From a virus, in the IMG/VR virus record IMGVR_UViG_3300044971_003581, positions 1 to 26,954 of that record: a stretch of 26,954 bases of DNA. The stretch is one strand, 5' to 3'. The translations under genes and the position numbers were made by a program. The notes beneath the pieces were generated by a model. That model made no database searches. It saw nothing but the letters and a program-made list of their open reading frames with translations, and was not told where the DNA came from. Position 1 is the first letter of the stretch. Every line of letters begins with the position of its first letter. Positions 3,943 through 9,084 of this stretch are shown here, piece by piece.

Positions 3943-4752
3943 TTAAATTTCCTCAATAAAATAAAAGTTTTTAAATTTCATATCTTCTATACATTTATCT
4001 ATACACTCACCACCAAACCAGTTATTTGGGGCAATAACCATTTTACTCTTCGCTAACCATGCTCCCCACCAAGAGAAAGATGAATTAGCGATTATATGAT
4101 AATTACACATAGACATCAAACATAGATCAAAATCTGTCGAATTATTTTCTGAGATAATGAATCTATCAGATGAAAATAAATCAGAATTTTTACACCACTC
4201 ATAATCATCAGAAAAAACCAAAATAGGTAAATCTTTCGGAAGATTTTCTATAGATTTTTTATAAAAATTATTATTTTGAAGAGGATGATTTGGATTAATT
4301 GTATAGTCACCTCTACGAACGTGTAGAGAAATAATTTCACTATCAAAATTATCTTGAATAAAATTTTGACACATTTCAACCAATTCTAAATTAAAAGAAA
4401 AATCTTCCCTTATTTCATCTTCTATGTGAGAAAAATATTTCTCAGTCTGATAATACCCAAATAAATCAATTTGATCTGGACAATTTAAATATAATTCTTC
4501 ATCAAATTCATGTCCCCTTTCTGGAAGAACGGGGTTTCTTGTTAATGAAATATTATTTTTAGATTTTATATCAAAAATATTATAAATGCTAATATCGGAT
4601 TTTCTGACATTTGTATCAATATTTCCAAATACTTCTTCGGGTGGAATGCAATATTCATATCCACGATGTTTTGCTATTCCCTTTAGAGAAGCATATTGGA
4701 ACATTTGATTTCCAAGTCTTCCCATATTTCCAAGATGATTAAATGATAACAT
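3943..4752 (-). CDS. GT11 alpha-1,2-fucosyltransferase
   Basis: This 269-residue protein carries the GT11 signatures in order. GRLGNQMFQYASLKG lies at the N-terminus. The GDP-fucose site SLHVRRGDY (H-x-R-R-G-D-Y) is followed by NNNFYKKSIENLP. LPILVFSDDYEWCK comes next, then HIIANSSFSWWGAWL near the C-terminus. These match family GT11, which transfers L-fucose from GDP-fucose to galactose in O-antigens and glycans. Length is close to the family norm of 270-300. It overlaps the end of fcl by 14 bp, so donor synthesis and donor use are adjacent. A cytoplasmic enzyme is expected. Confidence 0.82.
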   Translation of the reverse strand: MLSFNHLGNMGRLGNQMFQYASLKGIAKHRGYEYCIPPEEVFGNIDTNVRKSDISIYNIFDIKSKNNISLTRNPVLPERGHEFDEELYLNCPDQIDLFGYYQTEKYFSHIEDEIREDFSFNLELVEMCQNFIQDNFDSEIISLHVRRGDYTINPNHPLQNNNFYKKSIENLPKDLPILVFSDDYEWCKNSDLFSSDRFIISENNSTDFDLCLMSMCNYHIIANSSFSWWGAWLAKSKMVIAPNNWFGGECIDKCIEDMKFKNFYFIEEI

Positions 4753-5698
4753 TTTCTTTGTACCAATTATAAGTTAATTCTATACCATCACGAAGACTAA
4801 TCTTAGGTTCCCATCCAAGCGATTTGATCTTATCTACGTTCAAAACTTTACGGGGAGTTCCATTTGGTTTTGTAGTATCCCACTCAATATCACCCACAAA
4901 ACGAACAACATCAGAAATTGTGTGTGCAAGTTCTTTAATTGTTACGTCCTCACCAGTTCCAACATTAATGTGTTCCGCTTCATTATAGTTTTGCATAGAA
5001 ACATAACACGCCTCTGCAAGATCATCAACGTGCAGAAACTCTCTCATAGCAGAACCATCACCCCAGAGTTTCACGGAACCATAATAAGGTCCACCCATAT
5101 CAATTGTATATCCGTGCTCTTTCATATAATGGAACTTGGCAATCATCGCAGGGAGAACGTGTGATGTCTCCAGATCAAAGTTATCATTAGGACCATAAAG
5201 GTTCGTAGGCATCAGGGAGATGGCATTAAACCCGTGCTGCTGGCGATATGCTTGACACATCATAATACCAGCAATCTTTGCAATCGCATAGGCATCATTA
5301 GTTGGTTCCAGAAGACCAGTCATTAACTGATCTTCAGTAATAGGTTGAGTTGCAAACTTAGGATAGATACAAGATGATCCAAGAAATAAAAGTTTCTTCA
5401 CACCCCAACGGTGAGAAGACTGAATAATATTAGTTTGAATACGAAGATTTTGAGTCAAGAAATCTGCCTTATAATTATTGTTCGCCATAATACCGCCAAC
5501 TTTGGCAGCAGCAACAAAAACATAATCAGGTTCTACAGATTGAATATACTCATCAGTTATTAGTTCATCTGCAAAATCTACAGATTTGCGAGTCCCTTTG
5601 ATGATGTTGGTATAACCTTTACCTTCAAGATTTCTCACGATTGCAGAACCAACCATTCCGTTGGCACCAGCAACTAATACTCTAGAATCACTGTCCAT
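4739..5698 (-). CDS. fcl: GDP-L-fucose synthase
   Basis: This is an NADPH-dependent epimerase/reductase that makes GDP-L-fucose from GDP-4-keto-6-deoxymannose. [19 protein letters not shown] is the Rossmann G-x-x-G-x-x-G. [11 protein letters not shown] carries the catalytic Ser, and [10 protein letters not shown] is the Y-x-x-x-K of extended SDR enzymes. [18 protein letters not shown] and [16 protein letters not shown] are typical of Fcl/WcaG. An upstream in-frame TTG exists at 5716. I chose the ATG at 5698 because the Rossmann fold begins directly after it and GAGG precedes it. It gives 319 residues and an 11-bp overlap with gmd. Base composition looks less AT-rich than the flanking glycosyltransferases, suggesting different ancestry. 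Confidence 0.92.
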
Positions 5699-6689
5699 AA
5701 ATGCACATATCCTCAACTAATTGTTTGAAAGAAATCTTAGGTTCCCAACCCAATTTTTCCTTTGCCTTAGTGGCATCACCTAATAAGGTCTCTACTTCAG
5801 CAGGTCTAAAATATTTAGGACTCACTCTTACAACCTCCCTTTTAGTATTCTTATCAATACCAACTTCATTAAGTCCTTCACCTTCCCATACAATATTCAT
5901 ACCAAAGTATGGTGCTGCTTCCTCAACAAACTCACGCACCGAATACTGCTCTCCTGTGGCGATCACGTAGTCATCAGGTTCATCCTGTTGAAGCATCAAC
6001 CACATCGCCTCTACGAAGTCCTTAGCGTGCCCCCAGTCGCGCTTTGCGTTTAGGTTGCCGAGATATAGTATATCTTGCTGCCCAGTTGAAATGGATGATA
6101 GTCCGCGAGTGATTTTTCTTGTGACAAAAGTTTCTCCTCTTCTAGAGGATTCGTGATTGAAAAGAATTCCAGAATTTGCGTGTAATCCATAAGACTCTCT
6201 GTAGTTTTTAACAATCCAGTATCCATAAACTTTTGCAACTCCATAAGGTGAACGAGGATAAAAAGGTGTAGTTTCAGATTGTGGAATTTCTTGAACCTTA
6301 CCATACATCTCCGATGTAGATGCCTGATAGATTCGAGTTTTGTTTTCCATTCCAAGAAGACGAACTGCTTCAAGAATACGAAGAGTTCCAAGTCCATCAA
6401 CCATACCAGTATATTCTGGCATCTCAAAAGAAACCTTAACGTGACTTTGAGCACCAAGATTATAAATCTCATCAGGTTGAACTTGTTGAATGACTCTTAC
6501 AAGATTTGTAGAATCAGTCAGATCCCCATAATGTAGTTTAATCTGATTGTAAATGTGGTCAATACGGTCAGTATTAATCAAAGATGATCTACGAACAATA
6601 CCATGAACTTCATATCCTTTCTCTAAAAGAAGTTCTGCAAGATAAGATCCATCTTGACCTGTGATTCCAGTAATTAATGCTATTTTCAT
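5688..6689 (-). CDS. gmd: GDP-mannose 4,6-dehydratase
   Basis: This enzyme converts GDP-D-mannose to GDP-4-keto-6-deoxy-D-mannose, the first step to GDP-fucose. [20 protein letters not shown] is the Gmd-specific NAD(P) site. [19 protein letters not shown] holds the catalytic Thr and Glu, [10 protein letters not shown] the Y-x-x-x-K, and [18 protein letters not shown] is a hallmark of Gmd. At 333 residues it is near the lower end of the family. It overlaps the carbamoyltransferase stop by 4 bp (ATGA) and fcl by 11 bp, forming one translationally coupled unit. All catalytic residues appear intact. Confidence 0.95.
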
Positions 6690-8332
6690 TTTGTAAATAA
6701 AAGGTTTTCAACAACAATAAAATCCATTTCTGTATTTTCTAAGACATCAAAAGCATCTTCAACTGTAGTCAAAATTGGTTTACCTTTTATGTTAAAGGAA
6801 GTGTTCATAATGACCGCAATTAAATTTCTCTGCTTCAATACAGTAAGTATATCATAAAATAGTGGATGTTGGTTTTGATTGACAGTTTGAAGTCTTGCTG
6901 TCCCATCTTCATGAGTAATAGCAGGCAAAAGACTTCTATATTCTTCACGGACAATGGGAGCAAAACTCATATATTCCGAAGGAAACGCATTCTCAAAATA
7001 TAAATTTTTATCCTCTTCTCTACAAACAGGAGCAAAAGGTCTAAACCATTCCCTAAATTTAACTTTAGAATTTAATACATCTTTCATATCAAGAATTGAT
7101 GGATCGCAAATAATACTCCTATTCCCAAGTGCTCTAGGTCCAACCTCAGAATAACCCCTAATAATTCCACCTATTTTACCTTCTTTTATCAAATCAACAA
7201 TTAAATCCGAAGTTGCATATTTAACTTTACCGTTAGATTCATATTTCTCATAATACTGAATGATTTTTTCCCTATCCATAATATCGATACCGCAATATGG
7301 AGAAGGATTGCAAGAAATTTGCTGAAATCCAACAAAATGTCCAAAAGATAATCCACAATCACCAGGATAAGGAGGAATATAAAGTTTCAAGGATTTTTGA
7401 CTTAAATATTCTGCCAATTTTTGATTAAACAAAACATTTAATGCGCATCCACCAGAGAAAACAACATCTAAATTATACTTTTCAATATAAGGTTTAATAA
7501 AAGAAAAACAAAGTTCTTCAAATACATATTGATTTGTTGCAGCCAAATCATAAGAATCTTTACCAGAAAAACAATTTTCAGTTAGATCAATTCCAATTTC
7601 TTCACAAAGAGATTTTTCTATTTGTTCATATCTTGTCCAATGATCAACTGGATGATGTTTATAAAAATTTGTTATAGGATCAATCCATTCATTCCTAACT
7701 TCACCATAAGCAACCAATCCCATTATTTTACCAGCGTATGATAATGCATTTTTATTTGCTTTACCATCGTCACAATATTCCTTTTTAATTTCACTCACAT
7801 AATATCCCAAAGCACCGTAAATTCCAGGATTAAATACAAAATCTTCAGATTTATAATTTGTATGAACTATAGTATCATTCTCACCTTCAATAAATTTGTA
7901 AATACTATAACTTCTAAGTGCCAACTGATTTTCATATTGGTAGTCCAATCCACCACCATCTAGAGAAATTGCAAGAGCATTAGTAAATCCACTTTGAAAA
8001 TATGCACCTGCACAATGGGACATATGGTGCCCCATACAAAATACTTTTGAGTTTGGAAAATTACTTCTCAAATATTCCAAATCTTCATGGTCTAACTCAC
8101 TGTATAATATAATCTCAGGTTGTTCTTTTAATTGTGTTTTAATATATCTCAAAAAATTATTTCTAATATCTACATTCGTACCTATAGAACTATTATCATC
8201 CCTTTGCCTAAAAACTCCAAACCTTTTTTTACAAAATCTTTCATACTCAAAAATTCTTACCTGATCATTCTTATCAACAAACGTAACGGAAGCATCATGA
8301 TATCCATTTATTGCTAATATTTTAGAATTCAT
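6686..8332 (-). CDS. NodU/CmcH-family O-carbamoyltransferase
   Basis: This 548-residue protein resembles NodU, CmcH and TobZ, which transfer carbamoyl from carbamoyl phosphate through carbamoyl-AMP to a hydroxyl on a sugar or antibiotic. [15 protein letters not shown] is the N-terminal Kae1-like start. [17 protein letters not shown] gives the metal-binding His pattern and ALSLDGGG-like residues follow ([11 protein letters not shown]). [17 protein letters not shown] and [20 protein letters not shown] belong to the Kae1-like domain. The C-terminal YrdC-like part contains [15 protein letters not shown] and [12 protein letters not shown]. It heads the gmd-fcl operon, so the probable acceptor is a sugar, perhaps fucose (inference). 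Confidence 0.9.
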
Positions 8333-8342
8333 AAAAATAATA

Positions 8343-8366
8343 CACTTAACATTTATTATATATTAC
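8343..8366 (-). promoter_or_regulatory. AT-rich -10-like stretch before the carbamoyltransferase
   Basis: On the minus strand a TATAAT-like hexamer, overlapping ATAATAAATG, lies between the terminator and the ATG at 8332. No good -35 sits at the right distance. It may be a weak promoter or a diverged late promoter, or only AT-rich sequence. Confidence 0.25.
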
Positions 8367-8393
8367 AAAAAAAGAGGAGGTTACCCTCCTCTT
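8367..8393 (-). terminator. intrinsic terminator upstream of the glycan operon
   Basis: On the minus strand AAGAGGAGG, a 4-nt loop and CCTCCTCTT form a perfect 9-bp stem followed by seven T. It lies directly after the structured leader element and 35 bp before the carbamoyltransferase ATG. It could end the upstream small-gene transcript, or act as the expression platform of an attenuator. Confidence 0.85.
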
Positions 8394-8400
8394 AGGTCTA

Positions 8401-8492
8401 TTTCAGGCTCGCCACCAATTCTTTTACTGGAAATTGGAAACCAGGCGGGAGAGAGTCCCATCCGCACCACTTGCCTTTTTAAGGAAAGGCAA
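8401..8492 (-). ncRNA. structured leader RNA element (candidate wcaG-type cis-regulatory RNA)
   Basis: Read on the minus strand, TTGCCTTT pairs with AAAGGCAA in an 8-bp hairpin. GCGG-AT-GGGA pairs with TCTCCCGC, leaving an AT bulge. CCAATT pairs with AATTGG, and its loop contains CCAG, which can pair with CTGG just upstream and form a pseudoknot. A terminator follows at once, then the carbamoyltransferase-gmd-fcl genes. The wcaG RNA motif is known from cyanophages upstream of exopolysaccharide genes such as GDP-fucose synthase, so this is a good candidate by position. I could not compare it with the covariance model. A shorter sequence motif is shared with the repeats at 8763-8837. Confidence 0.45.
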
Positions 8493-8497
8493 GAAAC

Positions 8498-8710
8498 CTA
8501 TTTGTTTTCAGAAACAAAGTCATTAATAACTTGCGCTTGCTGAAGAACTTCATCTAGAGTTGGATATTTTGGAATATCCATCTTGACAGTATTCATAGAA
8601 CTTTGATTCCAGTCTCTTACAAAGTCGTAATTAACACAAAAATTATCATTGAGCATACTATATGCTTGTTTGAAAATTTCAAAACGAAGTTCGTAAGGTG
8701 TTTTAGACAT
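8498..8710 (-). CDS. hypothetical protein, cyanophage-type
   Basis: This is a small acidic protein of 70 residues with no signal peptide or membrane segment. It contains one Cys and an aromatic patch (NFCVNYDFVRDWN), followed by YPTLDEVLQQAQVINDFV, which is probably helical. It lies between two structured intergenic stretches: the tandem repeats upstream and the leader-like element with terminator downstream. An ATG is preceded by ATGGAGATTA, where GGAG is a reasonable ribosome binding site. I do not recognise a function. Confidence 0.65.
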   Translation of the reverse strand: MSKTPYELRFEIFKQAYSMLNDNFCVNYDFVRDWNQSSMNTVKMDIPKYPTLDEVLQQAQVINDFVSENK

Positions 8711-8762
8711 AATTAATCTCCATATGTGTGTTTGTGTGTAGCAATAGGGTCATATTGACTCC

Positions 8763-8837
8763 ACCAGTACTTTTAAAGTCTCTCCGTGACTAAGGGGTTT
8801 GCTCCCGACCAGTGCTGTTTAAGTCCATCCGTGACTA
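8763..8837 (-). repeat. two tandem 30-nt imperfect repeats, period 45 nt
   Basis: Copies at 8763-8792 and 8808-8837 match at 25 of 30 positions. On the minus strand both begin TAGTCACGGA and end ACTGGT. Each can form a short AGTC/GACT hairpin. The first copy in transcription order starts right after the stop of the gene at 8839. They look like tandem RNA or regulatory elements in the 5' leader of the gene at 8710. A related core (CGGATGG followed by CTGGT) recurs at 8440-8464. Confidence 0.6.
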
Positions 8838-8838
8838 T

Positions 8839-9084
8839 TCAATCATCTTTTACGTATGCAGGAACACCATCAGGATCTAACCAACAGGTATAATCGTGAT
8901 CTTCCATAGCAGTCATAAGTTGCATTTCATTATCCAAAAGATACATATCTTTATACCTACCAGTATAAGAATCTACTTTTTGAATTCGATAATCAGGTTT
9001 TCCATTAATTTCTAATGTACCTACCTGCACATATCGATAAGGAAAACGTTCTAAAAGAACGGTGGGTTTCCTAACAACTTTCAT
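8839..9084 (-). CDS. hypothetical protein
   Basis: This 81-residue protein is rich in aromatic and charged residues, with PYRYVQVGTLEINGKPDYRI in its first half, suggesting a small beta fold. DHDYTCWLDPDGVPAYVKDD ends it. No signal peptide or transmembrane stretch is seen. Its ATG shares one base with the stop of the upstream gene (TAATG), so it is probably translated by coupling. It follows the strong promoter at 9323-9351 through that gene. I do not recognise a function. Confidence 0.7.
   Translation of the reverse strand: MKVVRKPTVLLERFPYRYVQVGTLEINGKPDYRIQKVDSYTGRYKDMYLLDNEMQLMTAMEDHDYTCWLDPDGVPAYVKDD

Follow-up and report, generated by a model that had tools for sequence, protein, structure and literature searches.

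We propose that the wcaG RNA array of T4-like cyanophages forms the 3′ end of an early transcript, with a terminator or a tRNA as its boundary, and that the sugar operon found behind it starts a transcript of its own. We give this reading a probability of a little under one half. It is based on a virus record of 26,954 bases, called the window here, and on related loci from other phages. By its content the window looks like a T4-like cyanophage, as it has eleven tRNA genes together with a pstS-like gene and a gene for the large subunit of ribonucleotide reductase. In this phage, wcaG would most likely be transcribed as the end of a small-gene early transcript arriving from upstream (ORFs 9299 to 8498, minus strand), and the terminator behind it would end that early RNA. 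The carbamoyltransferase-gmd-fcl genes would constitute a cargo unit, most likely starting its own transcript behind the terminator, and only RNA that reads through the terminator would have wcaG in the leader of the sugar operon. A probable role of the pseudoknots is to provide the early RNA with a compact, stable 3′ end against 3′-5′ exonucleases; alternatively, wcaG may be left over as a small and stable RNA, much like the tRNAs nearby.

The element is a member of an already classified RNA family. The original prediction had named it a candidate wcaG RNA and suggested an Infernal search with Rfam RF01761, and this search (cmscan) returned a full-length match at 8501 to 8401. The score of 101.5 bits compares with a gathering score of 42, with E-values of 1e-18 over the whole window and 2.4e-20 over the local stretch; the other Rfam families found at the site in the local stretch were chance-level miRNA models only. 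The cyanophage or marine setting of the family applies as well, the relatives being T4-like cyanophages. Sugar genes lie downstream in the window, which is not general, as 37 of 182 loci have a clearly non-sugar first gene. The features are collected in Table 1.

Table 1. Features at and around the wcaG RNA, in window coordinates and in the order of transcription.
Feature	Position	Strand	Details
Small conserved cyanophage ORF, PHROG 481	8839..9084	minus	resembles recurrent wcaG-upstream family
Two B-type structured modules (AGTC..GACT), in tandem between two small ORFs	8740..8840	minus	no Rfam family at gathering score
70-aa early ORF	8498..8710	minus	stop TAG 8500-8498 overlaps PK1
wcaG RNA (Rfam RF01761)	8401..8501	minus	covariance model positions 1-98/98, 101.5 bits
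First H-type pseudoknot PK1	8470..8499	minus	AGG 8499-8497:CCT 8484-8482; CTTGCC 8493-8488:GGCAAG 8475-8470
Bulged linker hairpin P2	8444..8463	minus	GG-A-TGGG / CCCGCC
Second H-type pseudoknot PK3	8410..8444	minus	CTGG 8444-8441:CCAG 8430-8427; CCAAT 8437-8433:ATTGG 8419-8415; then TGGCG
Intrinsic terminator hairpin and T-run	8372..8393	minus	9 pairs
Exact TATAAT, candidate -10 of sugar operon	8355..8360	minus	22 nt before ATG; -35 poor
NodU/Nol-like carbamoyltransferase, first sugar-operon gene	6686..8332	minus	PF16861, 1.1e-58
GDP-mannose 4,6-dehydratase gmd	5688..6689	minus	PF16363, 4.9e-156
NAD-dependent epimerase, GDP-fucose synthase-like (fcl)	4739..5716	minus	PF01370, 2.3e-61

The layout that had been described from the letters is confirmed in all its parts. 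The bulged hairpin is present on the minus strand, the strong terminator stands directly behind the element (8393 to 8372), and the sugar operon follows at 8332 to 4739. The location given for the element is right, but its 5′ end lies slightly beyond the 8492 originally noted, with PK1 overlapping the stop codon of the upstream ORF. Between 8250 and 9100, three terminator-like sites were found, compared with a mean of 0.4 in shuffled sequence.

The CTGG/CCAG pseudoknot, put forward earlier as a possibility, is real. In an ungapped alignment of 58 distinct 35-nt modules (57 plus the window's own; it omits the 65 modules parsed as 32 nt, which have the stem type seen in the window, and 3 more whose length is different again), all 522 of 522 pair cells hold, against 79.6% in shuffles and 36-45% when the partners are slid. 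Changes on both sides occur at 8 of the 9 pairs, and the letters that belong to no helix hardly vary (TTT, AAA, TGG.G). The PK3 helix is readable in 187 of 192 distinct wcaG sequences, the other 5 being dropped from the parsing, and in all 187 it pairs over 4 bp; with the 5′ strands permuted among the sequences, the number falls to 84 ± 6, with a maximum of 102. Two scans set other letters for one helix strand (CAGG; CCTG or TCTG) and left the partner strand free, which changed to match.

The hairpin at the 5′ end of the Rfam model is a second and similar pseudoknot. The 3-bp helix in it consists of Watson-Crick pairs in 100 of the 160 parsed sequences (43 ± 5 when permuted), or in 147 with G-U allowed (127 ± 3); 32 of the 192 were dropped here, their 5′ module not being parsable as this type. 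Covariation in relatives, whose absence was to count against the prediction, is thus found for both pseudoknots, and on these alignments wcaG is best described as a short array of pseudoknots joined by linker hairpins. Structured modules of another kind, here called B-type (AGTC..GACT, AGAC..GTCT, CGTC..GACG), lie upstream of wcaG in many phages, and the AGTC..GACT modules of the window resemble in kind those standing next to wcaG in S-PM2, S-CREM1 and Syn1. In ACG-2014f (L253, about 2560-2640), a lone wcaG-type pseudoknot module (CTTG:CAAG) is followed by a terminator and is possibly a minimal form.

The covariation also bears on the idea of a junction element, where the pseudoknot modules would be kept as homologous stretches for the exchange of cargo genes. 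Both neighbours of wcaG vary while the element stays, and small ORFs sit between the B modules and the wcaG-type (A) modules, as such a role would have it. However, the compensatory changes keep pairing and not sequence, and homology alone would not select pairing. We therefore consider this explanation very improbable.

The downstream side was surveyed in the 186 loci with at least 110 nt behind wcaG (6 of 192 have less and were left out). A terminator is present in 145 of them, and in 128 a -10 element stands directly behind it. The exact hexamer TATAAT occurs 0-5 nt after the T-run of 91 out of 148 terminators (shuffled tails: mean 2.7, maximum 9), and with at most one mismatch this becomes 130 of 148 (mean 28, maximum 41). 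The hairpin loop of the terminator often holds TTGACA, TTGCAT or TTTACA at -35 distance, such that terminator and promoter are fused. In the core loci, a sample from among the matches listed (9 of 106 rows were dropped, 5 without a recognised P3 end and 4 cut off), a -10 is seen behind 75 of 84 wcaG terminators versus 27 of 72 other terminators. From these sequences, the fusion of terminator and promoter would seem to be a device of cyanophages in general.

The occurrence of the fusion differs between classes of first gene. Where this gene is of sugar-nucleotide or glycosyltransferase type, a class assigned by hand from clusters and Pfam with 14 of 182 loci unclassified and left out, a terminator is found behind wcaG in 125 of 131 loci, and a sigma70-like promoter lies between wcaG and the gene in 119. 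The corresponding numbers for the loci with another first gene are 6 and 2 of 37; the sequences are related to each other, so a Fisher p for the 131 versus 37 contrast overstates independence. In the 119 loci, the -10 is a median of 23 nt from the start codon (5-95%: 13.5-29), and because the distance is this short, transcripts from the fused promoter would be without wcaG. The arrangement suggests how sugar cargo can keep its expression when placed behind one early gene or another.

These results speak against wcaG as a riboswitch or leader of the GDP-fucose operon, which had been the central claim of the original prediction. A classical riboswitch would bind a metabolite, for example a nucleotide sugar, and gate the polymerase coming from upstream past the terminator into the sugar operon. 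The nearly constant terminator directly behind the RNA in sugar loci fits such a device, the compact pseudoknots with their invariant loop letters could hold a ligand, and the pages on wcaG in Weinberg et al. 2010 rate it 'y' both as cis-regulatory and as a switch (PMC2864571). Against this, most sugar operons have their own promoter between wcaG and the genes, full-length wcaG is kept beside non-sugar neighbours, and the phage P-SSM2 has sugar genes and does without wcaG. Furthermore, an alternative pairing between wcaG and the terminator, of the kind that an aptamer would use, was not found when the duplex energies of own and swapped partners were compared. For the 5′ arm, the energies are -9.29 and -9.03 kcal/mol, respectively, a difference of -0.26 that is about 3 sd of the swaps, and for the 3′ arm they are -7.98 and -7.96 kcal/mol, a difference of -0.02. 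With differences as small as 0.26 and 0.02 kcal/mol, an antiterminator as expression platform was rejected. A sugar-sensing switch for the downstream genes looks doubtful, since the array would usually end the transcript before the sugar genes, and we regard the riboswitch as quite unlikely.

Separate transcripts on the two sides, which had been named as speaking against a leader, are suggested by the sequences of the relatives, and less so by that of the window, where the promoter is weak. The TATAAT of the window fits the -10 of the relatives in its distance from the start codon, but it is displaced from their usual promoter spot, and the hexamer (8360-8355) is absent from the list produced by a consensus promoter scan. 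As there is no promoter of the relatives' type at the usual spot, and the -35 is poor, the separate-transcript reading is weaker for the window phage than for its relatives. Places other than wcaG also have terminators with a TTGACA loop and a TATAAT-like hexamer directly following the T-run, and one of these is on the minus strand of the window.

Another possibility is that nascent wcaG modifies the polymerase, in the manner of HK022 put or EAR, so that it passes the following and later terminators in long cargo operons. Processive antitermination is served by put, EAR and ops/RfaH, and wcaG likewise is a structured RNA just upstream of a terminator, with long sugar operons to follow. On the other hand, a promoter placed after the terminator makes read-through needless in most sugar loci, and 31 of the 37 non-sugar loci have no terminator there. 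This scenario is accordingly judged to be distinctly unlikely.

The neighbours of wcaG were compared in 22 named phages, taken from 50 records after leaving out duplicates and Sf-FP1, Sf-CH1a and Sf-CH1b. The presence of wcaG in this set holds by construction and the result is the copy number: all 22 have wcaG over the cut-off at one place per genome, with a second, weaker match near the first in Syn1 and S-RIM4. What follows the array changes from phage to phage. A terminator and then a sugar-cluster gene come next in 5 of the 22 (S-SM2, S-SRM01, SynMITS9220M01, DSL-LC03, S-SCSM2R), a tRNA in 8 (S-PM2, S-CREM1, S-CAM1, S-RSM4, S-WAM2, S-H9-1, S-CAM3, Sf-CH11) and another gene in 9, such as a 2OG oxygenase, an HNH gene or small ORFs. 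In 6 of the 22, wcaG is intercistronic, as an ORF starts within 25 nt behind the array and is separated from it by no terminator and no tRNA. On the upstream side there are small early ORFs of the same strand, and 16 recurrent families cover 175 of the 186 loci for which this side is available. In the upstream stretches fetched for the 22 named phages, the annotation includes transaldolase (talC) in 13 cases, and a Phd-, VapB- or prevent-host-death-like antitoxin likewise in 13.

Full-length wcaG is thus retained also where a tRNA, a 2OG-oxygenase gene or some other non-sugar gene comes next. The converse was considered with six phages that have a close gmd. Among these, wcaG exceeds the cut-off in S-SKS1, S-CAM7 and DSL-LC02, only reduced forms are present in S-SCSM1 (37.2 bits, inside the sugar cluster) and ACG-2014f (32.4 bits), and no wcaG was found in P-SSM2, although its sugar genes are at the same place behind GC249-GC250-GC251. 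The 2010 description links wcaG with exopolysaccharide and high-light genes (PMC2864571, passages on the motif); in view of the variable neighbours and of P-SSM2, this link may reflect position. A host origin of wcaG was rejected, as one exact pattern gave 1 match in genome_contigs, on a MAG contig with phage-like neighbours; plasmids gave no wcaG match. The linker pattern TGGTGGAGTCA..TGACCC was also dropped as a genome-wide element, being found in just 3 of 22 records, at one place each.

The region around wcaG is rich in stable RNAs, namely tRNAs, cyano_tmRNA (S-CAM1 and S-CAM3), manA and abiF RNA (both in S-CREM1). The tmRNA is of the permuted cyanobacterial type (RF01851; S-CAM1 L132 1391-1659 and S-CAM3 L141 194-463, with 128 and 127 bits), carries the ARAGORN tag ANTSDSAANNIVAFSRSTVAA and is placed in the tRNA cluster upstream of wcaG; the manA RNA of S-CREM1 also lies within a tRNA cluster. 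In the window, an abiF RNA (RF03085, 46.5 bits) is located at 17123-17087 on the minus strand, directly before tRNA-Ser and with a T-run behind, adjoined by the tRNA and not by a toxin gene, and 3 of the 22 named phages, S-CREM1, S-SRM01 and S-SZBM1, have one as well. AbiF RNA acts as an antitoxin elsewhere, according to the relevant part of PMC12373285, and by analogy a lytic phage may use such an orphan copy as a decoy. An annotation gap upstream of wcaG in S-PM2 was at one point taken for a long non-coding array. By eye and from the upstream cluster, it looks like a broken Trp-halogenase-like gene; the unannotated stretch is L123 4484-5860, and Syn1, S-RIM44, Sf-CH3 and Sf-CH11 have an annotated Trp-halogenase at that place.

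With such neighbours, wcaG might itself be a trans-acting phage RNA, an orphan antitoxin or decoy whose pseudoknot array binds a host protein in the way of ToxI-type antitoxins or the phiTE mimic. Type III antitoxins are laid out as tandem motifs and then a terminator, as presented in the portion of PMC12373285 on these RNAs, and the annotated antitoxin genes upstream, the abiF RNAs and the phage-borne nature of wcaG, with its 1 genome_contigs match, point in the same direction. Conversely, the repeats are not near-identical and have hairpins between them, no toxin gene stands behind, and a cognate host RNA was not found with the one exact pattern searched in genome_contigs. We consider a trans-acting role unlikely. 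Its more specific version, a type III-like antitoxin mimic that would neutralise a defence toxin of the Synechococcus or Prochlorococcus host and be no riboswitch, is held with low confidence; wcaG would then be produced where an early RNA cluster ends, one that also includes tRNAs, tmRNA, the orphan abiF antitoxin RNA and antitoxin genes.

It should be pointed out that several observations count against the 3′-end reading too. These are the weak promoter of the window with its displaced -10, the intercistronic wcaG of the 6 phages, the reduced form inside the sugar cluster of S-SCSM1, and the strong conservation of loop and linker letters, which goes beyond the needs of a mere roadblock. Co-transcription with the upstream genes, activity of the promoters and a stabilising role of the array are accordingly put forward here as what the arrangement would imply. 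If wcaG mostly ends a transcript and is untied to the sugar genes, searches for a nucleotide-sugar ligand behind this operon may be looking in the wrong place, and one would rather ask how a T4-like cyanophage benefits from stable pseudoknot arrays.

Finally, the array can be compared with known systems. Structured nascent RNAs upstream of terminators are known from put RNA of HK022 and from EAR of the Bacillus eps operons, the latter serving exopolysaccharide operons. The likeness seen to wcaG is one of layout, and most wcaG sugar operons differ in that the terminator is followed by a promoter of their own. Type III antitoxin RNAs (ToxI, TenpI, CptI; AbiF RNA RCd22) also consist of tandem RNA motif arrays followed by a terminator. 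They are characterised by near-identical tandem repeats, the terminator and a toxin gene, while wcaG has two dissimilar pseudoknots, unlike in sequence and joined by hairpins, and a carbamoyltransferase next in place of a toxin gene. The STAXI motif (Weinberg et al. 2010) is alike as a tandemly repeated pseudoknot, but by its 2010 description it has other gene neighbours than wcaG. As regards the family itself, wcaG entered the literature as a candidate riboswitch in 2010 (PMC2864571), and the passages that mention it in that work, PMC9602691 and PMC9964418 report no ligand and treat it, without testing, as a presumed cis-regulatory RNA. The copy described here agrees with RF01761 as presented in the wcaG sections of Weinberg et al. 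2010 (PMC2864571) in its full-length match, its cyanophage setting and the sugar genes behind it. The printed Rfam structure line has hairpins only, to which the present data add two covarying pseudoknots, and the present gene context speaks against a 5′ leader.
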